The notes beneath the pieces are model-generated. The model made no database searches, had not been told where the DNA came from, and was given only the letters and a program-made list of their open reading frames with translations. From positions 344,247 through 408,246 of the forward strand of contig JAESII010000005.1 in the NCBI GenBank assembly GCA_016756725.1: a stretch of 64,000 nt of DNA. Reading direction: 5' to 3'. Below, in pieces: positions 1-43,491 of the stretch. The position numbers and the translations under genes are program-made. Source of the DNA: Synergistaceae bacterium. Lineage in GTDB: Bacteria; Synergistota; Synergistia; Synergistales; Aminithiophilaceae. Within the stretch, counting starts at the first letter, position 1. Each line of letters opens with the position of its first letter.

Positions 1-119
1 TCACCAAGACGCTTCTATCTTTTGATCAAACGATAGAACGTGCAGAAGCAAGTCTTGATAATTCTCAGTCGATGCTGAGAGCACTCAATTCAAACTGGGT
101 CGAGGTGCTCCATGTTTAA
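1..119 (+). CDS. 3' end of an upstream gene, possibly hsdS (partial)
   Basis: An open frame runs in from the left edge and stops with TAA at 117-119, overlapping the hsdR start by 8 bases. The visible 38 residues end in NSNWVEVLHV and look helical (FDQTIERAEASLDNSQSM), like the C-terminal coiled coil of a type I specificity subunit. The overlap with hsdR supports hsdS. The fragment is too short to prove the identity, and any hsdM would lie outside the window. Confidence 0.4.
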   Translation, partial: TKTLLSFDQTIERAEASLDNSQSMLRALNSNWVEVLHV

Positions 120-9599: not shown

Positions 9600-9614
9600 G
9601 CTGATGCCCGAGTC
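9600..9614 (+). repeat. 15-base direct repeat, copy 1
   Basis: GCTGATGCCCGAGTC sits on the start of the phosphoribosyltransferase gene. An identical copy lies at 15603-15617, over the stop of the DUF2188 gene. Together the copies frame the 6-kb block B. A 15-mer match in 64 kb is expected about twice by chance, so the meaning is uncertain. Confidence 0.4.
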
Positions 9615-16765: not shown

Positions 16766-19020
16766 GTGAAACTGTCTTTACCAAGGTCGATTACGACCTG
16801 GGGTCGCTGGTCAAGTATATCGCCCTGGGTGAGATCGGCCTGCCGGATATTCAGCGACCCTTTGTCTGGAAGAATAGCAAGGTGAGAGATCTGTTCGACT
16901 CCATGTATCGCGGCTATCCGGTGGGCTACCTACTCTTCTGGCAAAACGCCATGGCGACTGACACCCGCGCCATCGGATCTGATTCCAAGCAGAAGCCGCC
17001 CCGGCTGGTCATTGTCGATGGTCAGCAGCGGTTGACCTCACTTTATGCGGTCATCAAGGGCATCGAGGTGCTCCGGCAGAATTTTGAGCACGAGGCCATC
17101 AGCATCGCTTTCAACCCGCTGGTGGAGAAGTTTGAGGTGGCCGACGCCGCCATCCGCCGTGACAAGAGCTATCTGCCCGATATTTCCACGCTGTGGAGCG
17201 AAAAGACCGACCTCTTTGAGGTGGTTGACGATTATCTGGCGGGTTTGGCCTCCACTCGAGAGGTGAGCGAGGAAGAGAAAAAACGGGTCCGCAAGACGAT
17301 CAGCAAGCTTCAGGGACTGTTGAGCTTTCCCTTTACGGCCCTGGAACTTGACGCGAACATTTCCGAGGAAGATGTATCCGACGTCTTTGTCCGCATCAAC
17401 AGCAAGGGAACGCCGCTCAACCAGGCGGATTTCATCCTGACCCTGATGTCGGTTTTCTGGGACGAAGGGCGGGACGAATTGGAACGATTCTGCCGAGAGG
17501 CCGGAAAATCCAGTAAAGGAACGGCTTCCCCCTACAATTATTTTATCGTGCCATCCCCTGACCAGCTTTTGCGGGTCAGTGTCGGGTTGGCCTTCAAGCG
17601 TGCCCGTCTCAAGTATGTCTATTCGATCCTGCGCGGCAAGGATCTGGAAACCGAGCAGTTCAGCGACGAGCGCCGGCTGGACCAGTTCGCACGGATGAAG
17701 GATGGCCAGAAGCGGGTGGTCAATCTCCAGTACTGGCATGATTTCATGGCCTGCATCCGCCTGGCCGGATTCCGCAGCGCGGCGATGATCAGTTCCCAGA
17801 ACAATCTGCTCTTTTCCTATCTGCTCTATCTTATGGGACGAACCGAATACAAGGTGCCGGAATATGAGTTGCGCGGGGTCATCGCCCGGTGGTTTTTCAT
17901 GTCCAGTGTGACCGGGAGGTTCACCAGTTCGCCAGAGTCGGACATGGAGTTCGATCTGGCCCGTTTCAGGGAAGAGAAGAGTGCCGATGAGTTCATCAAC
18001 ACCCTGAACCAGATATGCGACATCACCCTTACCAGTGATTTCTGGAACGTGACCCTGCCAAACGATCTGGCCACCTCGTCGCCACGGAGCCCTTCACTGT
18101 TTGCCTTTCAGGCGGCGCAGGTCATCTTGGATGCTCGGGTGCTCTTTTCCAAGGCGCGGGTGAGCGATCTTCTGGATCCGGACCTGCATGCCCATCGTTC
18201 CCCCGTTGAAAGGCACCACCTTTTTCCGAAAGGATATCTCAAAACTCTCGGCATAACCGAGATTCGCGATACCAACCAGATCGCCAACTACACTCTGGTG
18301 GAGTGGGGGGACAACACACAGATCTCCGACAAGGCTCCGGTTGCATACCTCCCAGGCATGAAGCGGCGGGTTGACCCGGCTGAACTTGGCCGGATGTATC
18401 ATTGGCATGCCTTGCCGGATGCCTGGGAAACCATGGATTACAAGGCATTTCTGGAAGCCCGGCGTGACATGATGGCCCAGGTCATCCGTGAGGGTTTTGA
18501 GTCCTTGTCGAAAGGGGGAACCGCTGCAATCGTCACACCCGTTGAGATCGATCTGGAAAAGATCGTGGCAAACGGCGAGTCTGCCATGGTCGAATTCAAG
18601 TCAACCCTCCGGACCAATCTGCACACCGGTGATAAGGATCCGCGCATGGAGGCGGCAGCCCTGAAAACCCTTGCCGGTTTTCTCAATACCAACGGGGGCA
18701 CTTTAATTGTTGGCGTGTCCGATGATGGCTCCCCGATTGGCATTGAAAGAGACGGATTTGTCAACGAAGACATGATGAGTCTTCACCTGGTCAATCTCGT
18801 CAATTCCCGGCTGGGACCCCAGGTGATGACCTGTATTCACTCCCATTTCGAGGATCACGATGGCAAGAGGATCATGGTGGTGCATTGTACCAGGTCTCCT
18901 GCCGCCGTATTTGTCAAGGACGGCACGCTTGAGAAGTTCTACCTTCGGACCGGTCCGTCCACCACGGAATTGAGTGCCAGCCAGACTCAGGATTATATCG
19001 GCAAGCGTTTCAGGAGATGA
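16762..19020 (+). CDS. DUF262-HNH nuclease fused to AlbA_2 (Schlafen-type) domain
   Basis: 752 residues with three parts. DUF262: LPDIQRPFVWKNSKVRDL, SMYRGYPVGYLLFW and VIVDGQQRLTSLY (DGQQR near 86). An HNH-like DUF1524 region near 483: VERHHLFPKGYL, then NQIANYTLVEW. From about 605 an AlbA_2 domain: MVEFKSTLRTNL, then GFLNTNGGTLIVGVSDDGSP. AlbA_2 is a nucleic-acid-binding fold found in regulators and Schlafen nucleases. GmrSD proteins normally lack it, so the fusion may supply a sensor or second DNA contact. Translation is coupled by ATGA to the hsdS remnant, which suggests that it accompanied a type I system. It is the second DUF262 gene in the window, and not a close copy of the first. Confidence 0.85.
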   Translation: MSETVFTKVDYDLGSLVKYIALGEIGLPDIQRPFVWKNSKVRDLFDSMYRGYPVGYLLFWQNAMATDTRAIGSDSKQKPPRLVIVDGQQRLTSLYAVIKGIEVLRQNFEHEAISIAFNPLVEKFEVADAAIRRDKSYLPDISTLWSEKTDLFEVVDDYLAGLASTREVSEEEKKRVRKTISKLQGLLSFPFTALELDANISEEDVSDVFVRINSKGTPLNQADFILTLMSVFWDEGRDELERFCREAGKSSKGTASPYNYFIVPSPDQLLRVSVGLAFKRARLKYVYSILRGKDLETEQFSDERRLDQFARMKDGQKRVVNLQYWHDFMACIRLAGFRSAAMISSQNNLLFSYLLYLMGRTEYKVPEYELRGVIARWFFMSSVTGRFTSSPESDMEFDLARFREEKSADEFINTLNQICDITLTSDFWNVTLPNDLATSSPRSPSLFAFQAAQVILDARVLFSKARVSDLLDPDLHAHRSPVERHHLFPKGYLKTLGITEIRDTNQIANYTLVEWGDNTQISDKAPVAYLPGMKRRVDPAELGRMYHWHALPDAWETMDYKAFLEARRDMMAQVIREGFESLSKGGTAAIVTPVEIDLEKIVANGESAMVEFKSTLRTNLHTGDKDPRMEAAALKTLAGFLNTNGGTLIVGVSDDGSPIGIERDGFVNEDMMSLHLVNLVNSRLGPQVMTCIHSHFEDHDGKRIMVVHCTRSPAAVFVKDGTLEKFYLRTGPSTTELSASQTQDYIGKRFRR

Positions 19021-19177: not shown

Positions 19178-21694
19178 TCAATGTCCTGCAGCTGCCAGCA
19201 GGATCTCGAGTTCAAGCGATCTGCAGTGGATTTCGCAGGGTCCCTCAAAGCGGAGGCAGATTCTTTCGCCGCGCCTGAGCCTGATGTTGAGGGGGCGTTT
19301 GCCCTTCCGTCGTGCCAGGTCGGGCAGCGAGACCCGGAGGCGAACGTCACCGCCCACCTCGAGAACAAGTTTCCCGCCCTTCCATTGCTTCAGCTCCTCC
19401 AGATCGATCGCCTTTACCACGATCTCCTTGACTCGGATGTTGCCGGAGTGGGTATCTTTCAGCCCTTCCGGTGTGCCTTCGTAGAGGATCTGGGTCGTTA
19501 CTTGAGGAGACAGGCACCCTTTATAAAGGGACAGGATCTCGAGCCCCCTTCCCTGAAGCGGTGCCGATGAGGACGTTCTCTTCGCCCCGGCGTCGTAGGG
19601 GGTGATTGGGGAGGCGAGAAAAGGTGGCGGATTGAGGGGGCCATGACGCTCGAAAGAGAACTCTTCATCGTTGTCGTCCAGAAAGTCAGTGAGCGACGCC
19701 TTTTTCCCCCTACCCCTTATGGGCCCGAGGCAGGGCGCGAGCTGATCTCGCTCGAACTCCCAGCCGCGGGGTATGGCCTGAGGAACGATACAGGAGGTCT
19801 TGATCCCTTCCCCGGTTTTGTCTCCCACGGCCAGAAAGGAGGTCTCCGAGGAGGGCAGGCCCTCGGCCAGCGAAATCTCGACGATATGTTTCCTCAGAAA
19901 CTCCCCGAGGACTGTGCCCCGGTTTTCCGCATAGAGGGGTTCAGGGGGAGTCGTTAGTCCCAGCGTTTCCAGCCTCGAACGCACATCGATCCCCTCGCCG
20001 ATCATTTCACGGAGAATTTCCAGATGCCGGATGCGCCGTGCGGCAAAGAGTTTTCCCAGGCCTGCTGATTTTTTGCTGTAGGGACTGAAGGCATGATGGG
20101 CGAGGATGTCGCCGCGGTGATCGATCAGGTTGAGTCTTGCCTGTCCTGCTGGGCAACCCAGCCGCCCGAGAATGACCACCGGCCTTCCTGAAATGAGGCA
20201 GCCCAGGTGGATCTCGTCTACCGGTCCTCCCTCGGGAGTTTCCAGGGCGCTTCCTTCCAACCGCAGGCGAAGTCCCGAGGCCGCTGGGGGTGCAAAAACG
20301 GACAGAAACTTTTCCAGGGCTGTGGTGAGGTCGTGGTCGTCTGGATTGCTCGTGAGGAACTCGCAGAGTCCTCCGCCCTCGTGGGCAAGGGCCTCTGCCA
20401 GCGGTTCGTTGGGTGCCGAATCGATGCAGAGGATGCTGACCATTCTGTGTTGCCTTTCACGGGCCTTTCCGGCGAGAGAGAGGAGCCTGGCTCCGTCGGA
20501 AACCTGGGCGTCCGTGAGGATGATGATGTGGCGGGCGGTTTCCACGCTGTCTGATGTTGTGAAACTCATGGCCTGTTCGAGCGCCATGCCGAGTTCGGTC
20601 CCACCATCGGCTTGTGTCTCGTCCAGGAACCGCCCGGCACCGGCGATCTCCTTGGGTGTGCCGAGAGCGAGCCCCTTCCGGTACCATTCCGTGTCGCTTC
20701 CGAAGGTGCCCAGGGCAAAACGGTCACAGGGTCCAAGCGTGTCCAGGAGGCTGCGCACCGCCCAGTCGGCGGCAGCCTTCTTTGCCCCGCTCATGGAGCC
20801 GGAGTGATCCACCAGAAGGATCACCTCTCGGGGAATCCCCCTTTCGGACTTCTCCCGTTCCTTCGGAGGAGTGACGGTGGCCATGAAGGTGGTGTGGGGG
20901 CTTCCCTCCGGCCGCTCGATGGCCAGGCTCAGGAGGGAGCTGTCACTTGGAGTGGCCTGGGCCCATTCGAGAATAAGGTCCTGGTCAGGGACGATCTCCT
21001 CTTCGGAGAGACGGACTCTGAGACCCTCGGGGGTCTTTTCGGAGGTGACGGCGTTGGTGGGACAGCAGATGTTCGTGGCGTCCGTGAACGTCAGGTCCAG
21101 GCGGAATCGGTGTTCCGGATCGTGAACTAGGGCCAGGGGGCCCGTGCCGAAGACGTGACGCTCCGATTCGTCATCCCTGCTGTAGCGTGGGGCGGTGGTC
21201 AGGGGCAGCCTCATGGACCAGCCCGGCTCTGTCGTCCCTGCGTAGAGGAGAACGGCCGTCTCCACGATGATGTCGGTATCGGCCTCCAGCCCCGCAAGCA
21301 GAAGGGTGAAGGTGTCGGCACCGGTCCGATGGAGCCAGAGGGCCTGGTGTCCCTCCTTGCGGGCTTTCCTGTAACCCCTTGCCGCGTCCTCTTTTTCGAC
21401 CAGCTTCGTTTCGATACGGTGTGCGCCGAAGGTCACCGTCGTACCCAGAACCATCGCGTCTCCCGGCAGCGGGAAACGGTAGGCCGCCTCGATAGGTCCG
21501 GGACAGTCCGAGGCCTTGAAGCGGAAGGTGTGTGTCAGTATCAGGTGGGCCAGCGGCCCTGTTACGGTGCCCGTGCAGATTGTGGATTTGAGGGGGACGA
21601 AAAGGGGAGTGGCGTCCTTTTTCCTTTCGAATTGCCGGATCTCGAGAGAAACCGTCTCATCCTGTCTCTGGTTGGCAAATCTCGACGCGAACAT
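19178..21694 (-). CDS. VIT and von Willebrand factor A domain protein
   Basis: 838 residues from the chosen start. The ATG at 21694 has GGGAGG 8 bases upstream; an earlier in-frame ATG at 21835 has no ribosome site. An N-terminal VIT domain (TGPLAHLILTHTFRF, GPIEAAYRFPLPGDAMV) is followed by a vWA domain with an intact metal site (LLVDHSGSMSGAK near 293) and LTDAQVSDGARLL. The last 300 residues are unrecognised; they include a stretch CLSPQVTTQILYEGTPEG. VIT-vWA proteins act as Mg-dependent adhesion or scaffold modules. No signal peptide is seen, so it is probably cytoplasmic. It lies downstream of the XRE gene in the same direction and points away from the DUF488-RecQ operon. Confidence 0.8.
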   Translation of the reverse strand: MFASRFANQRQDETVSLEIRQFERKKDATPLFVPLKSTICTGTVTGPLAHLILTHTFRFKASDCPGPIEAAYRFPLPGDAMVLGTTVTFGAHRIETKLVEKEDAARGYRKARKEGHQALWLHRTGADTFTLLLAGLEADTDIIVETAVLLYAGTTEPGWSMRLPLTTAPRYSRDDESERHVFGTGPLALVHDPEHRFRLDLTFTDATNICCPTNAVTSEKTPEGLRVRLSEEEIVPDQDLILEWAQATPSDSSLLSLAIERPEGSPHTTFMATVTPPKEREKSERGIPREVILLVDHSGSMSGAKKAAADWAVRSLLDTLGPCDRFALGTFGSDTEWYRKGLALGTPKEIAGAGRFLDETQADGGTELGMALEQAMSFTTSDSVETARHIIILTDAQVSDGARLLSLAGKARERQHRMVSILCIDSAPNEPLAEALAHEGGGLCEFLTSNPDDHDLTTALEKFLSVFAPPAASGLRLRLEGSALETPEGGPVDEIHLGCLISGRPVVILGRLGCPAGQARLNLIDHRGDILAHHAFSPYSKKSAGLGKLFAARRIRHLEILREMIGEGIDVRSRLETLGLTTPPEPLYAENRGTVLGEFLRKHIVEISLAEGLPSSETSFLAVGDKTGEGIKTSCIVPQAIPRGWEFERDQLAPCLGPIRGRGKKASLTDFLDDNDEEFSFERHGPLNPPPFLASPITPYDAGAKRTSSSAPLQGRGLEILSLYKGCLSPQVTTQILYEGTPEGLKDTHSGNIRVKEIVVKAIDLEELKQWKGGKLVLEVGGDVRLRVSLPDLARRKGKRPLNIRLRRGERICLRFEGPCEIHCRSLELEILLAAAGH

Positions 21695-21800
21695 TTTCCC
21701 GCCTCCCTGCAAATTTATTCGCCACGCCTCTTCCGGGGGAACCGGCCTTTCAGACGGATCAAAGCGGTTGGGTCTGAAGAGGAAATGCCCTTTCCCCTTC

Positions 21801-22163
21801 CTATTCCTTGCTCCTTTTGTCTGCAAAGAGTTCATTCATGGCCTTGCGAATAAAGTCCTCGCTCAGCATTCCGCTGGCCATCAGGGCTACGGGCGAGAGT
21901 CCCGGACCGGCCAGGACACTTCCCAGCAGGAGGATTTTTTTGAGCTTTTCCGGGGATGCGCCCCTGTTCAGACGTTTTTGAAGGAAGGCCAGCATCTCGA
22001 GGTTTTTCCCCCTGGGGCGGGACTTGCCCGTCTCCCAGCGGCTCAGGGCGGCCACAGTGACTCCCAGGGCGCGGCAGAATTCCTCCTGGGTGCAGTCCAT
22101 GTCTTGCCTCAGTTTTCTGATGTCGGGAACCTGAATGTCGAGGCTGTCTCGGCCGCAAGGCAT
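21801..22163 (-). CDS. XRE-family HTH regulator
   Basis: 120 residues. An HTH_XRE domain covers about 14-70: IRKLRQDMDCTQEEFCRALG, then ALSRWETGKSRPRGKN. A C-terminal extension (LLLGSVLAGPGLSPVALMA) is moderately hydrophobic. AAGGAGG lies 9 bases before the ATG. It is the first gene of the leftward pair and is divergent from the DUF488-RecQ operon, 401 bases away. A sigma70-like promoter with a palindrome over the -10 precedes it, so it probably represses itself and perhaps the divergent operon. Confidence 0.85.
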   Translation of the reverse strand: MPCGRDSLDIQVPDIRKLRQDMDCTQEEFCRALGVTVAALSRWETGKSRPRGKNLEMLAFLQKRLNRGASPEKLKKILLLGSVLAGPGLSPVALMASGMLSEDFIRKAMNELFADKRSKE

Positions 22164-22204
22164 GTGTCAGTCCCTCCTTGCCCTGTAATGAGCTATGAGG
22201 ACTG

Positions 22205-22234
22205 TAGTATGATACTAGTAGTTTTTGAAGTCAA
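22205..22234 (-). promoter_or_regulatory. XRE-gene promoter with palindromic operator
   Basis: On the minus strand, TTGACT (22229-22234), a 17-base spacer and CATACT (22206-22211). A perfect 13-base palindrome TAGTAT-G-ATACTA (22205-22217) covers the -10, a typical place for autorepression by an XRE protein. Confidence 0.65.
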
Positions 22235-22564
22235 GCTCCCGCCGGATCTGCGGCCAGGGATAGATCTTGCCGTCATCGAGGATTTGTTCTCTCCGTAGCC
22301 ATGGAGGCAGGCGATACGGGCATTGCCAACGACCTCTCATGCCTTCGCTTCCTGCTCCTGTCCGCAGTCTTGGAAAGATAGCGTGCGCTATCGGATTTCT
22401 GTCGTCTTTTTCTCCACATAATGGGTTATTATGCTGGTGATAATGACGAAACGGCCGTTAGGTGCCGGGAGCTCCCCCCTTAGACTAACGTGGTCTTCAG
22501 GCTGTCCTGCGTGGAGGTGCCCTGTTGGAGCTGCGTCGATCAATGTGGAGATAAAGGAGACGAC
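22235..22564. other. Divergent intergenic region upstream of the DUF488 operon
   Basis: 330 bases without a gene. The stretch ATAATGGGTTATTATGCTGGTGATAATGA (about 22418-22446) is A+T-rich with repeated TTAT/ATAA motifs and may hold the rightward promoter, but I cannot fix a -35/-10 pair. AAAGGAGA at about 22554 is the ribosome site of the next gene. Confidence 0.4.
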
Positions 22565-23170
22565 ATGCCGCAAGAGGTCTTCACCGTCGGTCATTCGAGC
22601 GGAACGATAGAGCAGTTTCTGGAACTCCTCGCCCTTCATGGGATTCAGGTCCTTGTCGATGTGAGATCCAGTCCCTATTCGAAGTTCGCCGGTCAGTTCA
22701 ACCGGGAGCCGCTAAAACAAGCGCTCAAGAAGGCGGGGCTTTTCTACCTCTTCCTGGGCGATGCCCTCGGCGGAATGCCCGCAGACCGGCGCTTTTACGA
22801 TGAGGACGGGTACGTGCTGTACCGGCGTATTGCCGAAACGCCAGCCTTTCGGGAGGCCGTGGACCGACTGCTGAAAGGGCTTGAGAAGCACCGAACCGTT
22901 CTCATGTGTGGCGAGGAGAATCCCCAGGGCTGTCATCGTCACCTCCTGATTGCCCGCGTCCTTCGGGAGAAGGGGGTCCAGGTGAGACACATCCGGGGAG
23001 ACGGGAGGGTGGAAAGCGAGGAGGATCTCTGCCGGAAAGACGGGCTTGGCACTCGCGATAATCCGGACCAAAATATCCTCTTTCTCGGGCTGGAGGCGCC
23101 GCAGCAATGGCGTTCCCTGAAACCGGTCCCGAGGCAGAGGTCCGAGGATTCCGGGTGGACCGAGGAATAG
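22565..23170 (+). CDS. DUF488 protein, first of the RecQ operon
   Basis: 201 residues from the ATG at 22565, which has AAAGGAG 6 bases upstream; the frame is open further upstream but without a ribosome site. Family signs are EVFTVGHSSGTIEQFLELL, LVDVRSSPYSKFAGQFN, and VLMCGEENPQGCHRHLLIA near 116-134. The conserved Cys and Cys-His suggest a catalytic or metal site. The biochemical function of DUF488 is not established. It is followed by a second DUF488 gene after 15 bases. The C-terminal 50 residues (ESEEDLCRKDGLGTRDN) are less conserved in look. Confidence 0.85.
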   Translation: MPQEVFTVGHSSGTIEQFLELLALHGIQVLVDVRSSPYSKFAGQFNREPLKQALKKAGLFYLFLGDALGGMPADRRFYDEDGYVLYRRIAETPAFREAVDRLLKGLEKHRTVLMCGEENPQGCHRHLLIARVLREKGVQVRHIRGDGRVESEEDLCRKDGLGTRDNPDQNILFLGLEAPQQWRSLKPVPRQRSEDSGWTEE

Positions 23171-23185
23171 GGGGAGCGGGAGATC

Positions 23186-23623
23186 ATGGAGATCTGCACG
23201 ATCGGTTTCTCAAAAAAAACGGCCCGGACGTTTTTCGAAAGCCTGAAGCTGTACGGCATTCGGCAACTCATCGATGTTCGTCTGAACAACGTCTCTCAGC
23301 TCGCCGGGTTCACAAAAAAGGAGGACCTCGAATATTTCCTGCGCGAGATCTGTGGCTGCGCCTATCTGCACCTTCCCTTTCTGGCTCCCACCAGGGAGCT
23401 GCTTGCCGGCTACAGACAGAAAACCCTCAGCTGGGAGACGTACGAAAAGTCCTTCCGCGATCTGCTCTGTGCCGGGGCCGTAGAGCATAAGCTGGATCGA
23501 AGTCTTTTTGAGGTCCCCGTGGCGCTGCTTTGCAGCGAGGCGGAGGCGACGTTCTGTCATCGGCGGCTGGTGGCGGAATACCTCCAGGAGCGTTGGCCTG
23601 ACGTTACCGTCCGCCATCTCTAA
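23186..23623 (+). CDS. DUF488 protein, second of the RecQ operon
   Basis: 145 residues, GGGAG ribosome site. Same family as the gene before it but shorter and diverged: ICTIGFSKKTARTFFESL, IDVRLNNVSQLAGFTKK, LLCSEAEATFCHRRLVAEYL. The Cys...Cys-His-Arg-Arg pattern is retained, so both copies look active. Two adjacent, non-identical DUF488 genes suggest a heterodimer or two successive steps. The spacing of 11 bases to the next gene supports one transcript. Confidence 0.85.
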   Translation: MEICTIGFSKKTARTFFESLKLYGIRQLIDVRLNNVSQLAGFTKKEDLEYFLREICGCAYLHLPFLAPTRELLAGYRQKTLSWETYEKSFRDLLCAGAVEHKLDRSLFEVPVALLCSEAEATFCHRRLVAEYLQERWPDVTVRHL

Positions 23624-23634
23624 GGAGGGAAACC

Positions 23635-24402
23635 ATGAGAATCGTTGTGACCCAGGTGACGCGCATGAAAGATTCCCGCATCTGCGTCGCGGGCGTCGAC
23701 TGCGACTCGGGCTGTAACGTGAGGCCTGAGCCTCGTCAAGGCGAACCTCATCTCAGTGTCGACGATCTGGATACCCGGGCGGGGGGCCTTTTCGGCCTGG
23801 GGAAGGTGATCGATCTGGGGCCCGTTGTCACCCGCTCCGATCCTCCCCATACAGAAGATCGGCTCTATTTCCGCAAAGAGGCAACAGCCGTTCAGGCAAT
23901 GGCCGGTCCGGAGTTTTGGGACCTGGTGCAAAAGAGGGTCAAACCCTCACTTTCGGACTGCTTCGGCCCGAGCCTTAGCAAGAGCGGCAAGACTTGTGCC
24001 ATGGCCAAGGGAACGGGAGAGGTCTCGCTGGGCTACCTGAAGCTGCACGGAAAGGCAAAGGTCGTTCCGAGGGAAGACGTCAAGAAGGCCTATCTGCACT
24101 GGCGCTGTGCCTCTTTCGGGGATCTTGAGACGGCCCTTACGGATCTCCGCTTTTTTTCGGTTCCGGATTTTGATCTCAAAGCCCCCCTTCTGGAGGAGGC
24201 AAATCGGAGGCTTTCCGCCGGCGCCCCGGCAGTCCTGGGGCTGGGGCTCTCCAGGGCCTTTGCCGGTGGAGATTTCAAGGAGAAACGCCATTGGCTGCAG
24301 ATCAACGGGTTGTATTTTGAAGAGGATTTCGCCGCTGCGATAAGCGGCACTCGCCTTTCAGCGGCCACCCTGGGTAGGGCCCTTTTTCACGGAAAAGGCT
24401 GA
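23635..24402 (+). CDS. Possible dual-OB-domain protein (function unknown)
   Basis: 255 residues with an ideal AAGGAGG ribosome site. No enzyme motif is visible. It starts MRIVVTQVTRMKDSRICVAG, has an all-beta look in the first 140 residues (LFGLGKVIDLGPVV, VSLGYLKLHGKAKVV), then a helical/beta part ending HWLQINGLYFEEDFA. This reminds me of the dual-OB (DuOB) family of nucleic-acid-binding proteins found next to DUF488 and helicase genes; I could not check that. If right, it would bind DNA or RNA for the RecQ-like enzyme that follows. Confidence 0.5.
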   Translation: MRIVVTQVTRMKDSRICVAGVDCDSGCNVRPEPRQGEPHLSVDDLDTRAGGLFGLGKVIDLGPVVTRSDPPHTEDRLYFRKEATAVQAMAGPEFWDLVQKRVKPSLSDCFGPSLSKSGKTCAMAKGTGEVSLGYLKLHGKAKVVPREDVKKAYLHWRCASFGDLETALTDLRFFSVPDFDLKAPLLEEANRRLSAGAPAVLGLGLSRAFAGGDFKEKRHWLQINGLYFEEDFAAAISGTRLSAATLGRALFHGKG

Positions 24403-24456
24403 TGATCGTCTGTGGGGCTGATGCGTCGCGGTTTTGACGAAGAGGGTGAAAAGGGG

Positions 24457-27400
24457 ATGGAGAGGGGCACGAAAGTCGACTTCAACAAGGCCTTCTGGGT
24501 TCATGTGAAGGGGGCTCTCGGGATCGGCGTCTCGGACCAGACCGAACTGGAACCGCTGGGGATGGTGCCTGTCCCTTTACGGGGGCTCCTTTTGACGCAG
24601 TTGGAGTTGCTTCCCGATCCTCCCGTCCGCGTCTTTTGGCAGACACAAACCCTTGCCGACGGGAAAGTCTATCGCTTTCCCGAAAGCTGGGAGTTCCGCG
24701 ACCCGGCATATCGGGAATCGCTCTTTCAAAGGCCTCTCCCGGGAGATGCGCCGCGAGGTGAGCTTTGGCCGAGATTCCCTCTGCTGTGGCGGACTTATCA
24801 GCTTGCGGCGCTGGGAATCCTTTACGAGGCCACAGCCGCCGGGGTGCCGGAAGTCGTTTTCGCAGATGACCATCCGGGACTTCCTCTGCTGGAGCTGGCC
24901 ATCTTGGATGTCCTCGAGACGGCCCGGAATGTGGCCCGTCTCTGGGGAGTCAGAAGCTGGAAAGGCCCTACTTTCCGCATCGTCATGATCTCCCCCTCGC
25001 CGTTGACGCTCATTCTCCTCGAAGAATATTGCCGACTGCTTAATCCGACATCGACCTCAATCTTCAATCCCCTCGACGGAGTGGTCCTTTGCCGGCAGGA
25101 GACGTTGCCTTCGGAGGAGGTCCCCCTCTTCGTGGGAGAGTCGCTTCGGGAGTCCGGTTCTGAGGGCCACAGATCCCACAGCTGCCTGAATTTAGTCGAC
25201 CTGGACGAGTGGATCGGGGCGCTCCAGGCCGAACTGGGCTGGCTGTCTCCCCTTTCCATTCGGTCCCAGGAGCCCCCCTGCTGGTCGGCGACGGAGGACG
25301 TCCTGCACTTTTTTGCCCGCCGCTTTTTCCCTTTGGCCTGTCTCAAGGACGAACAGACGGCGCTGCTTCTGCGCCTGATCGGGGGGGGAAGCTGCCTCGG
25401 CGTCTTGCCCACCGGTTTCGGGAAATCCCTGGTCTATCAGCTCTTGGGCATCCTTTTCCCCGGCCTGGTCCTGATCATCAGCCCCTTGATATCTCTCATC
25501 AGGGATCAGCTTTTCAATCTCTCCGAACAGGGGCTGATCTGCGCCACGGCCCTCTTCTCCGGGGAGGAAGACGCGACCCTCCCGTCTTCGGTGGACGATC
25601 TGGACGTGACCGGCACCCGTCTCCTTTTCATCGCTCCCGAAAGGCTTCGCATCCGAAGCTTTCTTCGCGGTCTGAGGGCAAAGCTTCGGTCACTCACGGT
25701 ACGGGCCATTGCCGTCGATGAAGCTCATTGCCTTTCCGAGTGGGGCTACGACTTCCGGCCAGCCTACCTCCAGATCGCCGACTTCCGCGCCATGCTCAAA
25801 GAGGAGCAGGAAGTGCCCATCCCGCTGGCGGCACTGACGGCGACGGCCTCGTCCCGCATTGAGGACGATATCTGCAAGATGCTGGATATCCCTTCCGATT
25901 CGTTGGTCCGATCTCCCTCTTTGGACAGACCCAACCTCACCTTTTCCGCCTGGGAGCTTTCACCGGAAAAGGGATCTCATCCCGAAGGGAAGATCCTTGC
26001 CGTCAAGGAACTCCTCTGCAGGCACATCCCCAGGGCTCTGAAACTGGAGGGGCTTTTCAGGCCTGATCATGAAGGCCGCTATCCCCATTCAGGACTGGTC
26101 TTCGGATTCTATGCGGCCCCTCAAGGGGCTTCTACCTACATGGATGGCGTCCATTATATCGCCGCCAACCTCGGGGGGGCTTTGGCCCTTCCCCCGAATT
26201 TGATCCGGGCCCATGCCAGCAAGGCCGCCAGGCAGTGCCCTGCCTGCGGTTCCCGCTTCTTTCGGCCTGCCTTGCAAGAAGACTTCCCTTCTGAAAAACA
26301 GAAGAGGCCGCTGGGGCATTGCATGACCTGCCTGAACTGCGGCAGGGTGGTTCCCGAGAAAGAACTCAGAGATCCGGCCCGAGAGGAATGGGAGCGCGAG
26401 ATCCATCGGACCCAGCAGGATTTCAAGCAGAGCCGTTTCCCCCTTCTTGTGGCGACCAAGGGTTATGGCATGGGCATCGACAAGGGCAATATCCGGTACG
26501 TCGTTCACAACGGCTTTTCCAGCGGGATCATGGGGTACTATCAGGAGGCTGGCCGTGCGGGACGGGACGGACAGGTCGCCCATGTCGCCCTTGTCTATCT
26601 TCCTCCCTGCCCGGACTGCGTTGACGAGATCCAACGCCGGATGAGGGACGATCCCAAGGCGATTCCCGGGCCCCGGTGTCATGCCAGCTGGGCCTGTGGC
26701 TTTGGCCGTTCCTACCTCTGTGATTTCGGAAAACAGTCGAAACTCCTCTTTTCATCTTTTCAGGGTGAAGAAAAGGAGGTCAAAGCGGCTCTTGATCTTT
26801 TTGTTGCCCTTCAATCGGGGAAGAGCCCTCGGGTCAAGAACGATGAGGAGCTGAAAAAGACGGAGCTTGCCCTCTTTCGGCTCCGCGTTCTCCGGACGAT
26901 AAAAAGCTATTCGCTCGATTATCGCGGGCCGCAGCCCCAATGGTTCGTTGAAGGCTTCGATGAACCCGCCTTCGAGGTGATGTTTCAGGGGCTTTCCGAT
27001 TTCCTGAGAAAAACGGACTTGAGCGAAGACAAGATCGCAGAATATCCGACCTATATCTGGAATCAAGCCGAAAAGAAGGGAAGAGGGAAAGCCTCTTTTC
27101 TGGCCCTTCTTGAGGGCTGCCTGGGCCTGCTGATCCGGAGGATCTACCGGGTCATTCCCCGAACGCGCTTTCAGATGCTCCTCAACGAATACCAGTATGC
27201 TCGTGGCGGTGCCCTCAAGGAGGCGTCTCAAGCGGTCTGCCGCCGAGCCTTGCTGCTGAACCTCCTTGGGATGGAGACGGTACCTGACGATTATCGCTGT
27301 GAACGTTGCGACGTCTGCCGTCCCGATTTGGATTTTCAAATAAAGGACCTTGCCGGGGAAAAGGCCGATGGTCCCCGCAGGCCCTATGACCAACTGGTCC

Positions 27401-28002
27401 TGAGGCTTCAGGAGGCTTTAGGCCGTCCTTTCAGCTCTACTGAACTGGATGACCTGGTGGAGGCTTTTGTCTCTGCCCGTTTTCTGACCCGTCTTTGGGG
27501 CACGGTGCTTGCCTTTCTCGAACAGGCCTCTTTCAGCCTTTCCGCCCTTTATCTGGCCGGCCAGGCCAGCCTCAGGATGGAAGGAGGGGACGAAGAAGCC
27601 CTGCGCTATCTTTCCGACGGCTTCAGGGAGGCCCTGATTCAGCTAACGGACAGGGAGGGAGTGCTGGCCTTCTACAGACTGGCGTCCGATGCCTTTCCCG
27701 ACGAGGCCTACTCCTGGCTTTACAGGGAGGAGAGCCTCTGGCGGGACGACCGTTCCTTCTGCCACAAGGAGGCCTGCCGACTTTTCGGTGACGAAAGCGC
27801 CCAAGCTCGAACGATCCGGCTTCTCCTTCGCCTGGAGCGGCTGGAGAGGGTCAAAAAGCCCCTTCAGGTCTTTGTCGAAAAGAGGAGATTCCTCGACAGG
27901 GCCTGGAGGCCAAGGCCCGAGCGGGGATCGACCGGTGGCGGAAAGCCCAAAAAGAGAGGGAGGGGAGAAAGAGAAAATGCCACGTCCTTTGGACGGTCTT
28001 GA
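24457..28002 (+). CDS. RecQ-like SF2 helicase with Zn-ribbon insert
   Basis: 1181 residues from the ATG at 24457; in-frame GTG 24412 and ATG 24421 are possible. The first 300 residues are unrecognised. The RecQ core has Walker A LPTGFGKSLVYQLL (about 316-329), VDEAHCLSEWGYDFRP (about 419-434), LTATASSRIEDDI, ATKGYGMGIDKGNIRYVVHN and YQEAGRAGRDGQ (about 695-706). Between motifs IV and V lies an insert with CPACGSRFF and CMTCLNCG (about 593-628), and motif IV itself looks altered (SGLVFGFYAAPQGASTYMDG). A later CERCDVCRPD near 948 resembles the RecQ zinc site. It is much longer than RecQ (about 600). Context suggests a DNA-unwinding effector of a defence module; the DpdF helicase of the Dpd system is another long RecQ-like protein, but no other Dpd gene is present. 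Confidence 0.85.
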   Translation: MERGTKVDFNKAFWVHVKGALGIGVSDQTELEPLGMVPVPLRGLLLTQLELLPDPPVRVFWQTQTLADGKVYRFPESWEFRDPAYRESLFQRPLPGDAPRGELWPRFPLLWRTYQLAALGILYEATAAGVPEVVFADDHPGLPLLELAILDVLETARNVARLWGVRSWKGPTFRIVMISPSPLTLILLEEYCRLLNPTSTSIFNPLDGVVLCRQETLPSEEVPLFVGESLRESGSEGHRSHSCLNLVDLDEWIGALQAELGWLSPLSIRSQEPPCWSATEDVLHFFARRFFPLACLKDEQTALLLRLIGGGSCLGVLPTGFGKSLVYQLLGILFPGLVLIISPLISLIRDQLFNLSEQGLICATALFSGEEDATLPSSVDDLDVTGTRLLFIAPERLRIRSFLRGLRAKLRSLTVRAIAVDEAHCLSEWGYDFRPAYLQIADFRAMLKEEQEVPIPLAALTATASSRIEDDICKMLDIPSDSLVRSPSLDRPNLTFSAWELSPEKGSHPEGKILAVKELLCRHIPRALKLEGLFRPDHEGRYPHSGLVFGFYAAPQGASTYMDGVHYIAANLGGALALPPNLIRAHASKAARQCPACGSRFFRPALQEDFPSEKQKRPLGHCMTCLNCGRVVPEKELRDPAREEWEREIHRTQQDFKQSRFPLLVATKGYGMGIDKGNIRYVVHNGFSSGIMGYYQEAGRAGRDGQVAHVALVYLPPCPDCVDEIQRRMRDDPKAIPGPRCHASWACGFGRSYLCDFGKQSKLLFSSFQGEEKEVKAALDLFVALQSGKSPRVKNDEELKKTELALFRLRVLRTIKSYSLDYRGPQPQWFVEGFDEPAFEVMFQGLSDFLRKTDLSEDKIAEYPTYIWNQAEKKGRGKASFLALLEGCLGLLIRRIYRVIPRTRFQMLLNEYQYARGGALKEASQAVCRRALLLNLLGMETVPDDYRCERCDVCRPDLDFQIKDLAGEKADGPRRPYDQLVLRLQEALGRPFSSTELDDLVEAFVSARFLTRLWGTVLAFLEQASFSLSALYLAGQASLRMEGGDEEALRYLSDGFREALIQLTDREGVLAFYRLASDAFPDEAYSWLYREESLWRDDRSFCHKEACRLFGDESAQARTIRLLLRLERLERVKKPLQVFVEKRRFLDRAWRPRPERGSTGGGKPKKRGRGERENATSFGRS

Positions 28003-28606
28003 AGAGATCGAGGCCGAGTTCGACCGCCTGGAAGAGGATCTGTTTTCGGTCTGTGCCGTGCTCGATGAACTCAACGAGCTCGGCCAGACGAGACAAGAGA
28101 TCGTCGCCCTTCATGATCGGCTTCGCCTGGGCCTGGAGGAGCTGAATCAGGCCCGAGAGAGGCTGGAGCAGACGATTGATCGTCCCCTGCAAGGGATCAT
28201 GCTTGCCCAGGAAAACGTGGAGACCGAACTGGCCGACCTTAAAAAACGGCAGCAGGTCTTTTCCTCCAACATTGACGAGCGGCAGGAACAAATGGCCCGG
28301 GAGCTTGAGGCTCGGTTCCGGCAGTGTCTGCTTCTGGACGATAGGCTCAAGGATCTGAATGGCCAAAAGGACCGGATTCGGGGTGACCTGGAGGCGCACG
28401 TCGCCGCTTGCCAAAGGGCCCAAACTTCCCTGGCCGGGCGGTTGGACGCCGTCGAAAGGCTCATAGAGGAACAGGGAGGAAAACTCCAGTCTCTTCATCA
28501 GGCAGAGGAGGCTCTCAGCGATCGCCTGACCCTGATTCGGAATATCGCCGCAGCTTCGCTGCTTTTAGGAGGAGCCGGTCTTCTGCTGGCCCTGATCGGT
28601 CCGTGA
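27977..28606 (+). CDS. Coiled-coil protein with C-terminal membrane segment
   Basis: 209 residues, overlapping the helicase gene by 26 bases, with GGGGAG before the ATG. Nearly all is heptad-like coiled coil rich in Leu, Glu, Gln and Arg (for example DLKKRQQVFSSNIDERQEQ). The last 20 residues (NIAAASLLLGGAGLLLALIG) form one membrane helix. It has no signal peptide, so it is probably a tail-anchored protein with the coiled coil in the cytoplasm. In a defence setting it could tether the helicase complex to the membrane or act as an effector. No enzymatic motif is seen. Confidence 0.75.
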   Translation: MPRPLDGLEEIEAEFDRLEEDLFSVCAVLDELNELGQTRQEIVALHDRLRLGLEELNQARERLEQTIDRPLQGIMLAQENVETELADLKKRQQVFSSNIDERQEQMARELEARFRQCLLLDDRLKDLNGQKDRIRGDLEAHVAACQRAQTSLAGRLDAVERLIEEQGGKLQSLHQAEEALSDRLTLIRNIAAASLLLGGAGLLLALIGP

Positions 28607-28670
28607 CCGGGCGAGGGCCTCTGTGGCCCGACAATGACGCTGTCCGTTCAGGCTCAGTCGCCAAGTTGAC

Positions 28671-28699
28671 TTGACAATTTTCGAAGGTCCACGTAATTT
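28671..28699 (+). promoter_or_regulatory. Sigma70-like promoter of the BREX operon
   Basis: TTGACA (28671-28676), 17-base spacer, TAATTT (28694-28699), about 115 bases before the HTH gene start. It is the only clear promoter seen before brxL. Confidence 0.65.
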
Positions 28700-28814
28700 T
28701 GTCCTAATTTAGCCTGATCCAACCTGATGAGAGCAGATTGAGACGACCTAAGCCCTGTATCAGTGGCTTTAGTGCCCTATGAGATGGCGACGAGTGGCTG
28801 GAGTGAAAAAACAT

Positions 28815-29000
28815 ATGGAAGACAGATGGCTATCGGTAGATGAGATTGGAGCCTATCTCGGTGTGAAGCGAGATACGGTCTACAAATGGATCGTCGAAAA
28901 AGAAATGCCCGCTCACAAGGTCGGTCGTCTCTGGAAATTCAAGAAAGACGAAATCGACGAGTGGGTGCGCAAAGGCAGAGCCAGTGAAACAAGAGAGTAG
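28815..29000 (+). CDS. Excisionase-type (MerR-like) HTH protein
   Basis: 61 residues from the ATG at 28815; GGAG lies 12 bases upstream, and an in-frame ATG at 28779 has no ribosome site. DRWLSVDEIGAYLGVKRDTV, then WIVEKEMPAHKVGRLWKFKK is a complete HTH_17/excisionase domain with a short tail. It is encoded directly before brxA and ends 1 base before the brxA ATG. Such small HTH proteins are common at the head of BREX operons and probably regulate them. An Xis role is less likely, because no integrase is present in the window. Confidence 0.8.
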   Translation: MEDRWLSVDEIGAYLGVKRDTVYKWIVEKEMPAHKVGRLWKFKKDEIDEWVRKGRASETRE

Positions 29001-29001
29001 G

Positions 29002-29787
29002 ATGACGGAAAAGAAAAAACTCTTGGCTCGGTTCGGGTTCAGCTTCGAACGCGGCGGTGCCCACACCGCCCGCACGATGATGCTCGCGGAGCTCCGGACC
29101 TTGTTGGCCTATGTCGATCGTCCCGAGGCCGATCGGAAAGATTACCTTCAAGCGATCAAACAAGAGAACTGCCTGGGCAAGCGCTCCTGCAAAAACCGGG
29201 TTCTCACCTATCAGCACCTTGTCGATCTCTATTCCCTGGACTGCACAAAGGCTCTTTTTCGAGCCCTTCGCTATCTCTGGGATCGTGAAATCAAGGGGCA
29301 AGCCCTGCTGGCACTGCTTTGCACCTACGCTCGAGATCCGATTTTCCGCTCTACGGCACCGTTCATCCTGCATTTTCCGGAAGGGACGACTGTCCTGCGC
29401 GAATCCCTTGAGGAGTTCATCGATGATCTGGAGCCCGGTCGGTTCAGCAAGGCGACTCTGACATCGACGGCCCAGAACATCAATGCGACGTGGACGCAAT
29501 CGGGCCATCTTCGAGGGCGAGTCAGAAAGGTGCGATCAAGGGCTCATCCGACGGCAGGAAGTCTTTCCTATGCCTTGCTCCTGGGCTATCTCTCGGGTGT
29601 GCGAGGGCAGTCTCTTTTTCAGACGGAATATGTCAAGTTGCTTGATTGCCCCCTCGACGGGGCCATTGAGCTTGCCGATGAGGCGTCTTGCAGGGGCTGG
29701 ATTGCCTTTAAACATCTAGGTGGCGTTATGGAGGTCCTCTTTCCCAAGCTGATCAGTCAAGAAGAAATGGAGTGGCTCCGTGAGTAA
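29002..29787 (+). CDS. brxA: BREX protein BrxA (DUF1819)
   Basis: 261 residues from ATG 29002; GTG 28984 is an alternative start that would overlap the HTH gene. The sequence LLARFGFSFERGGAHTARTM, YLQAIKQENCLGKRSCKNR and LTYQHLVDLYSLD is the DUF1819/BrxA pattern. BrxA is a small DNA-binding protein, needed in some type 1 BREX systems. It overlaps brxB by 8 bases. Length and order (brxA-brxB-brxC) match type 1 BREX. Confidence 0.9.
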   Translation: MTEKKKLLARFGFSFERGGAHTARTMMLAELRTLLAYVDRPEADRKDYLQAIKQENCLGKRSCKNRVLTYQHLVDLYSLDCTKALFRALRYLWDREIKGQALLALLCTYARDPIFRSTAPFILHFPEGTTVLRESLEEFIDDLEPGRFSKATLTSTAQNINATWTQSGHLRGRVRKVRSRAHPTAGSLSYALLLGYLSGVRGQSLFQTEYVKLLDCPLDGAIELADEASCRGWIAFKHLGGVMEVLFPKLISQEEMEWLRE

Positions 29788-30331
29788 AATTAAACGGCTG
29801 GTCCAATCTTATGCCAAATACATCTCTATCCCCTGGCGTGACGATGCCGCTGCCGCTCAGCGGGTGGTTTTCTGCGTCTACAGTGAGGCGGAGGAGCGCC
29901 GGATCCGGGCCAAAATGGATGAGTTCGAAATTGCCACCAGACAGGCAGGCCACGAATGGGCCCTTTTCGACCTGACCGATACTTTTGCCATTTGGCTTGC
30001 CTCACAAAGGTACGCCAGGAGTTATTTCCAGAAGCCCCATCTGCTCTCCACGCTGTTGCCGAAATACCTCACATTCATCACCGATCAATTCGAGGCCTTC
30101 CTTCAAAAGAACGACATCGGCCCTGATTCCGTCGTGGCGATAGAAGGCGTCGGTTCGCTTTTCGGATTTCTGAAAGTGAAAGAAGCCGTCGACAAGTTGG
30201 CTCCCATGGTCAAGGGGCGGCTGCTGGTCTTCTTCCCGGGCAGCTTCGAAAACAACAACTACAGGCTCCTAGATGGCTACGACGGGTGGAACTATCTCGC
30301 CGTGCCGATCACTGCGGACAAGGAGTATTGA
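29780..30331 (+). CDS. brxB: BREX protein BrxB (DUF1788)
   Basis: 183 residues, GTG start overlapping brxA. KIKRLVQSYAKYISIPWRDD, RVVFCVYSEAEERRIRAKM, then KGRLLVFFPGSFENNNYRLL and DGWNYLAVPI match the DUF1788 family, which in BREX is BrxB. It probably works with PglZ and BrxC in the core complex. Normal length (about 190-200). The stop is followed after 2 bases by the brxC start. Confidence 0.92.
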   Translation: MSKIKRLVQSYAKYISIPWRDDAAAAQRVVFCVYSEAEERRIRAKMDEFEIATRQAGHEWALFDLTDTFAIWLASQRYARSYFQKPHLLSTLLPKYLTFITDQFEAFLQKNDIGPDSVVAIEGVGSLFGFLKVKEAVDKLAPMVKGRLLVFFPGSFENNNYRLLDGYDGWNYLAVPITADKEY

Positions 30332-43486: not shown

Positions 43487-43491
43487 CGAAT

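Follow-up and report, generated by a model that had tools for sequence, protein, structure and literature searches.

The window (the whole stretch of DNA that was analysed, 64,000 nucleotides) carries five tightly packed genes on the + strand: two DUF488 genes, a gene for a dual-OB-like protein, one for a RecQ-like helicase and one for a coiled coil with a membrane helix. An XRE gene and a VIT/vWA gene precede them on the opposite strand. The ORFs and a Pfam scan place all seven genes where the first-pass annotation had put them, and the order and spacing of the five rightward genes also hold, with gaps of 15, 11 and 54 bases followed by a 26-base overlap; the 54-base gap presumes that the helicase starts at ATG 24457 and the overlap that the coiled coil starts at ATG 27977. 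The G+C content is even over the five genes (0.57–0.60, with 0.588 for the window), and composition therefore gives no split between modules. Between 21700 and 29100 there are five promoter-like matches (1.5 expected), and the + strand of the gap ahead of the cluster has none of these; terminator-like matches in the same interval number ten (9.0 expected).

The setting is a defence island, as had been claimed. On one side lies a gene with GmrSD_N and Schlafen-AlbA domains (16762–19020; Pfam), beyond which are an HEC-05 gene (12361–14199; E 3.7e-215), a PsyrA/ShosA-like DprA gene (10497–11453; PsyrA E 2.3e-59), a phosphoribosyltransferase-like gene (9604–10500; E 4.8e-8 to the C-terminal region of PsyrT) and a partial DpdJ match (7892–9520). 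On the other side a BREX set (BrxA, BrxB, BrxC, PglX, PglZ and BrxL) runs from 28984, beginning 377 bases downstream of the cluster. BREX is nevertheless a separate system; RecQ, DUF488 and rhodanese are absent from the main text of a BREX survey (PMC12839542).

The VIT/vWA gene (19178–21835, − strand) encodes 885 residues (PF08487, 2.4e-14; PF13768, 4.6e-13) and overlaps the XRE gene (21801–22163, − strand; HTH_3, 5e-12) by 35 bases. The divergent intergenic region of 326 bases (22164–22489) contains a palindrome of 7+7 bases (22377–22392) that occurs exactly once in the window. This may possibly be the XRE operator, judging from its sequence, with a count not above chance: allowing up to three mismatches gives three matches in the window against 2.3 expected, which is no excess. 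No match to the VIT/vWA protein was obtained in the 31 other loci searched, and we rejected the VIT/vWA–XRE pair as a cluster member. The two genes are neighbours of the cluster, unlinked to it in the loci searched, and their membership is not supported.

DUF488 protein 1 (22565..23170, + strand) is of the PDC-M45B type (PADLOC PDLC04657, E 9.7e-56; Pfam DUF488, 1.1e-25). Its ORF is open from GTG 22490; by eye, ATG 22565 behind an AAAGGAG site is the better start, giving about 201 residues. DUF488 protein 2 (23186..23623, + strand) is of the PDC-M45C type (PDLC04658, E 1.2e-58; PF22751, E 2e-10) and belongs to the Pfam DUF488-N3a ('active') clade. Both proteins retain the conserved cysteines of their family, and for DUF488 protein 1, Cys-x-Glu and Cys-His-Arg are invariant in an alignment of 13 proteins (A4). 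The names DUF488-N3 and DuOB are said to come from the work of Burroughs and colleagues in 2023 on the rhodanese–phosphatase superfamily, which reportedly predicted a role in DNA-end processing.

The third gene (23635..24402, + strand) occupies the PDC-M45A position and encodes a divergent protein, whose dual-OB assignment is a weak one made from sequence comparison. It scores E 1e-4 with PF22557 (DuOB) over residues 1–224, at 22.9 bits below the cut-off of 27, and E 0.03 with our own nine-sequence DuOB profile; a profile comparison with 13 DuOB proteins gave E 1.9e-4 and a probability of 47%, in the N-terminal half only. The PDC-M45A models of PADLOC did not match it at E 0.1. The AlphaFold model has a mean pLDDT of 29.8, too low for use, and searches of solved structures gave nothing credible for DuOB (best 3oop, E 0.34) and no match for DUF488b.

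PDC-M45 is a candidate system of PADLOC-DB 2.0.0, in which M45A is a dual-OB family and M45B and M45C are DUF488 proteins. The window resembles it in having B- and C-type genes that are adjacent and co-directional, with a dual-OB-like gene next; it differs in that the M45A models fail to recognise this divergent protein and in that the helicase and coiled coil follow. The claim that the gene content matches no known defence system is not supported for two of the three upstream genes, the third distantly resembling the third family of PDC-M45. A literature search found no paper under the name PDC-M45, which is a catalogue entry, and nothing fitting on DUF488, judged by titles and abstract openings. 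Such candidates remain unvalidated according to the available text of PMC12988326.

Comparable triads are found on plasmids of Allochromatium (inside a type III-B CRISPR region), Rhodovastum and Agrobacterium (adjoining CBASS cyclase and HORMA genes); the Rhodovastum and Agrobacterium DuOB proteins were detected with a profile that excluded both. At G091 a DUF488 gene is followed by an EcoRI-type methylase gene and a GmrSD/HNH gene, with a DuOB gene behind. Single DUF488–DuOB pairs have dnaJ/alaS/dapA-like genes close by in many genomes belonging to one genus, and a single DUF488 gene adjoins uvrA, uvrB and frmR on plasmids. Triads stand without a window-type helicase at L049, L050, L060, L268 and L269, and the helicase model found no match in the loci L060, L268 and L269. 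Across 185 genomes of the phylum, including the triad-bearing G097 and G184 (the latter only 55% complete), the window helicase was matched beyond the RecQ core only in G000 and G180, among the matches listed. Conversely, DUF488 profiles run over 20 loci (18 helicase-family and two RecQ-only) matched only the window and L001, helicase loci fetched later being viewed as gene lists only.

The helicase (24457..28002, + strand; 1181 residues, with GTG 24412 a possible start) matches Pfam DEAD (2.6e-14) and Helicase_C (7e-8), and RecQ_Zn_bind below the cut-off (0.0097). Pairs of cysteines that look zinc-ribbon-like by eye lie between its helicase lobes, and its C-terminal cysteines are of the RecQ type. 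The Pfam scan at E 1 returned these three families only, with no phosphoribosyltransferase or HAD domain, and no DUF559-type nuclease match was found in the protein. We rejected its identification as a housekeeping RecQ: it fails the RecQ equivalog model TIGR01389 (233.6 bits against a cut-off of 640) and passes only the broad subfamily model TIGR00614 (223.3 against 219.8). Searching solved structures returned RecQ-family helicases only, and the AlphaFold model (mean pLDDT 33.7) is too low in confidence for use. The first helicase profile matches nine of 389 genomes (E ≤ 1e-60), and in three of these the match resembles ordinary RecQ in score and length. Viral-sequence scans with single helicases each returned the query only, and 12 partial matches to the RecQ core came from phage records. 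Giant RecQ-core helicases of 1,716–1,857 residues (L258–L264) were rejected as family members at 255–302 bits, with no coil partner seen.

The last gene (27977..28606, + strand) overlaps the helicase gene and encodes 209 residues with a heptad z of 7.2 and a hydrophobic helix from residue 186, a predicted C-terminal tail anchor; Pfam gives weak coiled-coil matches only. Both the coil score and the rule for membrane helices are simple measures of our own, not a published predictor. The helicase and coiled coil recur as a pair, which the first-pass annotation had not separated out. In the close family the coil gene follows the helicase in all 15 loci (five split or masked, several near-duplicates), as it does in the 11 loci of a wider set partly gathered by the coil, and no coil-like ORF follows the other 94 RecQ-core ORFs. 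The coil scores are weak at L156 (z 4.8–5.5) and L121 (z 4.0–4.3), both with a membrane helix. Because the 19 close or wider loci with an intact helicase form 14 groups (50% identity over 500 residues), this hand count is not one of independent cases.

The pairing was also counted by ORF, with identical copies and ORFs with less than 330 bases of downstream DNA removed and fragments counted. Profile A1 was made from the first four helicases, picked solely for their similarity to that of the window. Among its members (at least 400 bits), a coil-like ORF comes next in 13 of 18, compared with nine of 103 other RecQ-core ORFs; the five members without it are L058, where a transposase gene intervenes, and split genes represented by 5' or internal fragments. 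Eight of the nine coil-positive controls belong to later wider-family loci (L157, L161, L180, L221–L224 and L229=L257) and the ninth is a 3' fragment of the helicase at G203. With all start codons tried, the coil is next in 14/19 members and 8/102 controls for profile A2, and in 18/22 and 4/99 for the wide profile A8. Using the first start codon only, A8 included, it is found for 19 of 28 family ORFs (one of them the 3' piece at L133, counted through a transposase ORF, with its own coil gene behind) versus two of 95 controls, both 3' fragments of family genes.

Selection bears on these figures. L156, L161 and L180 first drew attention through their coil gene and afterwards went into the making of A8; they cannot serve to test the pairing, and the wider family is partly circular; L157, in the control list, was likewise first seen with its coil. 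G272 and G282 were taken up for length before their neighbours were seen (A1 224 bits, against 207–210 for ordinary RecQ). Coil-blind selection, with the coil seen only afterwards, applies to seven loci outside G203, to G655 and to the plasmid loci. The window helicase scores 1605 bits with A1 and 1391 with A2 by construction, being in both profiles, whereas with A1 the helicases of L161, L180, L221 and L222 score 235–271 bits and ordinary RecQ up to 285; the wider family separates from ordinary RecQ only with a profile containing most of it. The literature, searched largely through titles and abstract openings, yielded no description of the helicase–coil pair and no paper combining DUF559, RecQ and phage.

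Upstream partners vary among the helicase relatives. A DUF559 domain scores above the Pfam cut-off at L120, L121, L180 and L221, and the enterobacterial relatives have the order DprA, HAD/DUF559/RecQ protein, tail-anchored coil. An Eco57I-type methylase gene lies at L136; in the wider family there are terminase genes at L161, a phage integrase at L180, a reverse transcriptase that hits PADLOC defence models at L156 and type I restriction genes at L222 and L223. Some partners (MrfA-like, UvrD, MutS_V, ParA/ParB) suggest DNA repair or plasmid partition instead, and near L057, L120 and L121 no defence gene is in view. Mobile settings are by nature favoured in the plasmid and viral collections.

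The reading that we prefer, at a probability of about one half, is that two modules share one apparent operon and work jointly. Module 1 (22565–24402) would be a PDC-M45-like triad, in which a divergent dual-OB protein joins two DUF488 enzymes; module 2 (24457–28606) would be the RecQ-like helicase and its tail-anchored coiled coil, found elsewhere with other upstream partners. The analysis shows which genes are present, their motifs, a membrane helix (as a prediction), that the pairing recurs, and that some relatives lie in mobile or defence settings; the functional steps, the joint action and any trigger are our inference. The coiled coil may tether the helicase at the inner membrane, the entry site of injected DNA, where the helicase would load onto foreign or replicating DNA at free or single-stranded ends and then translocate. 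Cutting would fall to a fused DUF559-type nuclease in some relatives; in the window, with the dual-OB protein as guide, the two DUF488 enzymes may work on the DNA ends that are exposed, or on the phosphates there, such that phage DNA would be neither replicated nor circularised. More tentatively, at somewhat less than even odds, the helicase (partly DUF559-fused) and tail-anchored coil may be the constant core of an undescribed, phylogenetically wide, membrane-acting immune system with interchangeable upstream modules (DUF488 pair and dual-OB protein, DprA, ParA/ParB, MrfA-like helicase or reverse transcriptase), like the sensor/effector swapping known elsewhere.

The first-pass annotation had taken the five genes as one undescribed module, with the helicase as effector, the dual-OB protein as adaptor, the DUF488 pair modifying or sensing and the coiled coil as anchor. 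The close spacing on one strand suggests a single transcript, the G+C content is even and the G180 copy is collinear; yet the triads without helicase and the helicase loci without DUF488 argue for separable parts, and we consider one integrated system unlikely. The five-gene set was seen only in the window and on the G180/L001 contig, the sole match in the search of genome contigs. We rejected this contig as an independent second case, since it is about 99% identical, is a short MAG contig with the helicase frame split and may be mis-binned. With no independent co-occurrence found, a conserved five-gene system was rejected: co-occurrence elsewhere fails for the five genes together and holds for the triad and for the helicase–coil pair.

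A role in DNA repair or genome maintenance, with a RecQ-type helicase and end-processing enzymes treating damaged or cross-linked ends and present in the island by chance, has a similarly small, if anything slightly smaller, chance of being right. MrfA-like and UvrD helicases, a MutS_V protein and ParA–ParB adjoin relatives, DUF488 occurs beside uvrA, uvrB and frmR, and the DUF488–DuOB pairs sit at apparently one chromosomal place. Such a role fits poorly with the patchy distribution of the helicase noted above, the phage-type contigs and defence-gene neighbours of part of the loci, the restriction-type nuclease domains seen in some relatives and the dense island of defence genes in the window. 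A toxic helicase of the PsyrTA/RqlHI type, with its partner elsewhere in the island (the DprA and phosphoribosyltransferase-like genes at 9604–11453), is improbable. These two genes do match PsyrA and the C-terminal region of PsyrT, a RecQ-type helicase is central to PsyrTA/RqlHI too, DprA lies directly upstream in the enterobacterial members of the wider family, and in E. coli RqlH is restrained by RqlI, rqlHI being a likely two-gene operon (PMC4670107, available text). The toxicity of RqlH, however, maps to its phosphoribosyltransferase domain (same text), whereas the window helicase shows neither this nor an HAD domain, and the DprA gene, rather than being adjacent, lies about 13 kb upstream. 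The tail-anchored coil after the window helicase is a further difference, the word 'coiled' being absent from the available text of PMC4670107.

In Hachiman, a helicase senses genome integrity and releases a nuclease (PMC12278908, available text); the operon proteins gave no match to HamA or HamB at E 0.1, and here the partner is membrane-anchored instead. DpdF is the best PADLOC model for the window helicase (1.1e-74), over the RecQ core; the best stretch covers only positions 13–214 of 610 in that model, and with NCBIfam DpdF, whose cut-off is 550 bits, the helicase scores 121.6. We therefore rejected DpdF as its identity, and Dpd membership, which would call for a full-length DpdF with dpd neighbours, fails, with a RecQ core and one partial DpdJ match found. 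If the preferred reading is right, the five-gene cluster is better treated as two parts, and the helicase–anchor pair would explain loci annotated piecemeal ('DEAD/DEAH or RecQ helicase', 'hypothetical protein') on plasmids of E. coli and Thermus and in phage-type contigs, offering a testable case of membrane DNA surveillance. The PADLOC DpdF and PsyrT matches in such loci may then mark a different unit.

Gene calling agrees with the first-pass annotation on the layout and coordinates of the cluster: a VIT/vWA gene (885 aa) and an XRE gene lie to the left, followed by five rightward genes encoding DUF488, DUF488 and a 255-aa protein (22565–24402), then a RecQ-like helicase (1,181–1,196 aa) and a coiled coil whose gene ends at 28606 (the pair beginning at 24457). 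The tight packing claimed there also holds, with intergenic gaps of 15, 11 and 54 bases and then one overlap, which is 26 bases provided that the coil starts at 27977; judging by this spacing, the five genes are probably co-transcribed. Pfam matches DUF488 twice (E = 1.1e-25 and 3.3e-23) and also DEAD, Helicase_C, VIT, vWA and HTH_3. The divergent intergenic region holds two palindromes, at 22209–22221 (placed approximately, by eye) and 22377–22392, which are possible XRE operator sites; the one at 22377–22392 was not above chance as tested.

The defence-island setting proposed for the window is borne out by PADLOC matches to a type I restriction enzyme (112–3066), a PsyrA-like gene (10497–11453), HEC-05 (12361–14199), PDC-S02 (a gene at 43483–44547) and BREX (from 28984). 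A 542-aa protein (7892–9520) has a partial DpdJ match (7.7e-61) and matches to Mokosh helicase models; it is preceded by an 887-aa gene without a PADLOC match at E 1e-6. A gene that resembles the C-terminal region of PsyrT, its phosphoribosyltransferase part (E = 4.8e-8), runs from 9604 and overlaps a PsyrA/ShosA-like DprA gene (10497–11453; E = 2.3e-59); the two, which lie ∼13 kb upstream of the helicase, are a possible ShosTA/PsyrTA-type pair. BrxC and PglX are separated by an additional gene of 573 aa (33796–35517); PADLOC finds nothing for it at E 1e-6, and by eye it resembles an AlbA-type protein.

The five genes had been proposed to form one unit, but their joint inheritance is not borne out: the sole second copy (locus L001, from genome G180) shares ∼99% identity with the window, over collinear pieces that span 22750–30033. 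Its contig of 6,964 bases carries the module together with the first part of BREX; its helicase reading frame is split, and three stretches of the window (∼75, 121 and 133 bases) are absent. The record is a Synergistaceae MAG, and G180 belongs to the same order as the window's genome and is placed in another family; the copy may represent a recent transfer or mis-binning.

The helicase–coil pair, which we rate as a variant among RecQ-helicase-based defence or toxin systems, recurs apart from this copy. A profile of the first four helicases (A1) matches nine of 389 genomes at E ≤ 1e-60: clearly in the window's genome, G180, G203 and G304, at 224 bits in frames of >1,200 codons in G272 and G282, and at 207–210 bits, as for ordinary RecQ, in G218, G310 and G363. 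Seven of 111 genomes of the G203 phylum match at E ≤ 1e-80, and one of seven in the G304 class, G304 itself. Among plasmids, nine records have a match to the window helicase at E ≤ 1e-30, three of them aligning with it at 29–35% identity (A1). The close family comprises loci with an intact helicase (the window, L057, L058, L059, L120 and L134–L138) and loci in which it is split or masked (L001/L039, L118/L119, L133, L139 and L140). In each of the 15 the last helicase piece is followed by a coil gene, with a transposase gene intervening in L058 and L133. The fairest test of the pairing sets members by A1 at ≥400 bits and takes the remaining RecQ-core ORFs as the comparison: a coil-like ORF comes next in 13 of 18 members (the other five are L058 and fragments of split genes from the 5′ end or the interior) and in nine of 103 other ORFs (none in 94); each of these nine belongs to a wider-family locus or is a piece of the G203 gene. 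Among 19 loci with intact helicases (14 groups at 50% identity), the coil protein has a C-terminal hydrophobic helix in 14 (in L257, in a second small gene); none was found in L059, L120, L137, L138 and L157 (5/19).

With an eight-helicase profile that includes L120 and L121 (A2), full-length close members score 1,046–1,552 bits and other RecQ-core proteins mostly ∼345 or less. L161, L180, L156 and L221–L223 score only 330–428 bits and were placed in a wider family by size (1,176–1,737 aa), N-terminal domains and the coil gene. A further profile (A8) was built from such members joined to the family, so that their scores of >1,200 are by construction; beyond its own rows it recovers L222 (1,227; a near-duplicate of L221), G282 (652), L257 in G655 (664–708) and L157 (485). 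In the A8 survey of 386 genomes, 98 have a RecQ-core match (E ≤ 1e-75), among which G304, G272, G655, G282 and G203 stand out at ≥522 bits, the next being 355. All 11 wider loci have a coil-like gene downstream: L121, L122, L221–L224 and L257 were fetched first for helicase similarity or length, and L156, L157, L161 and L180 were noticed with the coil and hence are no test of pairing. In L257 the coil of 81 residues is followed by one of 153 residues, which has the membrane helix.

Four of the eight A2 proteins match MTES_1575 and two match DUF559, both nuclease-type models, at E ≤ 0.5. In single-protein scans DUF559 is above the Pfam cut-off in L120, L121, L180 and L221 and below it in L223; MTES_1575 is under the cut-off throughout (L120 1.7e-7, L058 0.036, L161 0.015). 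Eight relatives, chosen for nuclease matches or kinship, show an E-x-[DE]-[GD] motif. Pfam scans found no domain of either type in the window helicase, L057, L156 or L257.

Upstream of the helicase, where the window has the DUF488 trio, L136 has ParA and ParB (with an Eco57I-type methylase further downstream, past the coil), L059 an MrfA-like helicase with a PRTase and a weak HAD match, L137 and L138 genes sized like that helicase (in L137 the coil is followed by a UvrD-type gene), L221 and, by annotation, L222 DprA, L156 a reverse transcriptase (PADLOC RT models, 1.1e-96) and a 241-aa gene, L257 a MutS_V protein, and L223, whose plasmid also carries a type I restriction gene, a gene of 1,003 aa. 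L180 follows a phage integrase, and L161 has terminase and ParB genes as neighbours. Mobile or defence settings are clearest in the wider family; nothing defence-like is among the neighbours in view at L057, L120 and L121. On the E. coli plasmid of L221 (5443–11566) the order is DprA, a HAD/DUF559/RecQ protein and a tail-anchored coil, a form with a near match in seven of 5,426 E. coli genomes (four on plasmids, three on chromosomes).

In PADLOC 2.0.0 the family helicases match only models such as DpdF and PsyrT, via the RecQ core, the L180 match being broader (17–764 of one DpdF model); the coil proteins match generic coiled-coil models or nothing. No fitting published description was found in the openly available literature, mainly titles and abstract openings, or in the accessible portions of PMC4670107, PMC9503650, PMC12278908, PMC12704722, PMC12839542 and PMC12988326.

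By its matches the trio is near a catalogued PADLOC candidate, the predicted system PDC-M45: the window DUF488 proteins match PDC-M45B (9.7e-56) and PDC-M45C (1.2e-58). The DUF488-adjacent proteins of four loci (L047, L049, L050 and L060) match both Pfam DuOB (6.9e-21 to 1.7e-57) and PDC-M45A (2.2e-13 to 3e-75), and PDC-M45A is therefore the dual-OB family. The 255-aa window protein has no match to PDC-M45A at E 0.1; its Pfam DuOB match spans its length and is weak (E = 1e-4, under the model cut-off), and a 13-member DuOB profile matches its N-terminal half (E = 1.9e-4, probability 47%), which points to a distant resemblance. Cys-x-Glu and Cys-His-Arg residues are invariant across 13 aligned DUF488 proteins (A4), so neither window copy looks inactive. 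We take DUF488 to be a member of the rhodanese-phosphatase superfamily. As described in part of PMC9503650, phosphate is passed to an active-site cysteine in this superfamily, and DUF4326, a clade distinct from DUF488, is predicted to act on ADP-ribose phosphates; that part does not mention DUF488.

In the scheme we propose, the helicase, held at the membrane, would meet incoming or exposed DNA, and the trio, as a chemistry module, would act on DNA ends. The helicase motifs, conserved cysteines and settings fit this scheme, as do the predicted tail anchor and the nuclease domains fused in some relatives, and we infer that DUF488 here stands in for domains (PRTase/HAD or nuclease) that relatives carry. 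The accessible text on Hachiman describes a helicase reading genome integrity (PMC12278908), and that on RqlH a RecQ-like helicase toxic through its PRTase domain and restrained by RqlI, a partner with a DprA-like region (PMC4670107).

An M45C-type match occurs in 27 of 185 genomes of the window's phylum (E ≤ 1e-15). Stretches from all 27 (1.8 to 64 kb) were scanned for DuOB, and 16 have such a gene ≤4 kb away on the same strand, by a profile of 13 proteins, most from the same loci, that the window dual-OB protein escapes. Two DUF488 genes are present in four (the window, its copy in G180, G097 and G184). In 13, all of genus g3, one or more of the short motifs standing for dnaJ, alaS or dapA were found, which suggests that these 13 DUF488 loci occupy a common chromosomal place. 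In G091 (L055, 7307–9448) an EcoRI-type methylase (4e-135) and a GmrSD_N/HNH protein lie between DUF488 and DuOB, and L056 (6633–9525, in G163) has the same order, by eye from sequence starts; these sets are a restriction-like form of the DUF488–DuOB pair.

Eight DUF488 plasmid matches were examined, from searches reporting 130 and 73 records. Plasmid triads lie inside a type III-B CRISPR region in Allochromatium, and also occur in Rhodovastum and in Agrobacterium, in the latter with a CBASS cyclase and a HORMA gene alongside; the dual-OB genes of the latter two score 6.7e-27 and 2.2e-29 with a profile not containing them. Two DUF488 genes and cas1/cas2 are present in Rhodothermus, along with a third gene that was detected only by a profile that includes it. 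Bosea, Aeromonas and Kosakonia have a single DUF488 gene at the place examined, and the Methylorubrum record carries no annotation. The helicase profile has no match in DUF488 loci L268–L273 and L060. An M45C-like DUF488 gene stands alone near uvrB and frmR on plasmids of Kosakonia (L061, with uvrA as well) and Aeromonas (L272), settings which hint that DUF488 may have a role in formaldehyde DNA damage.
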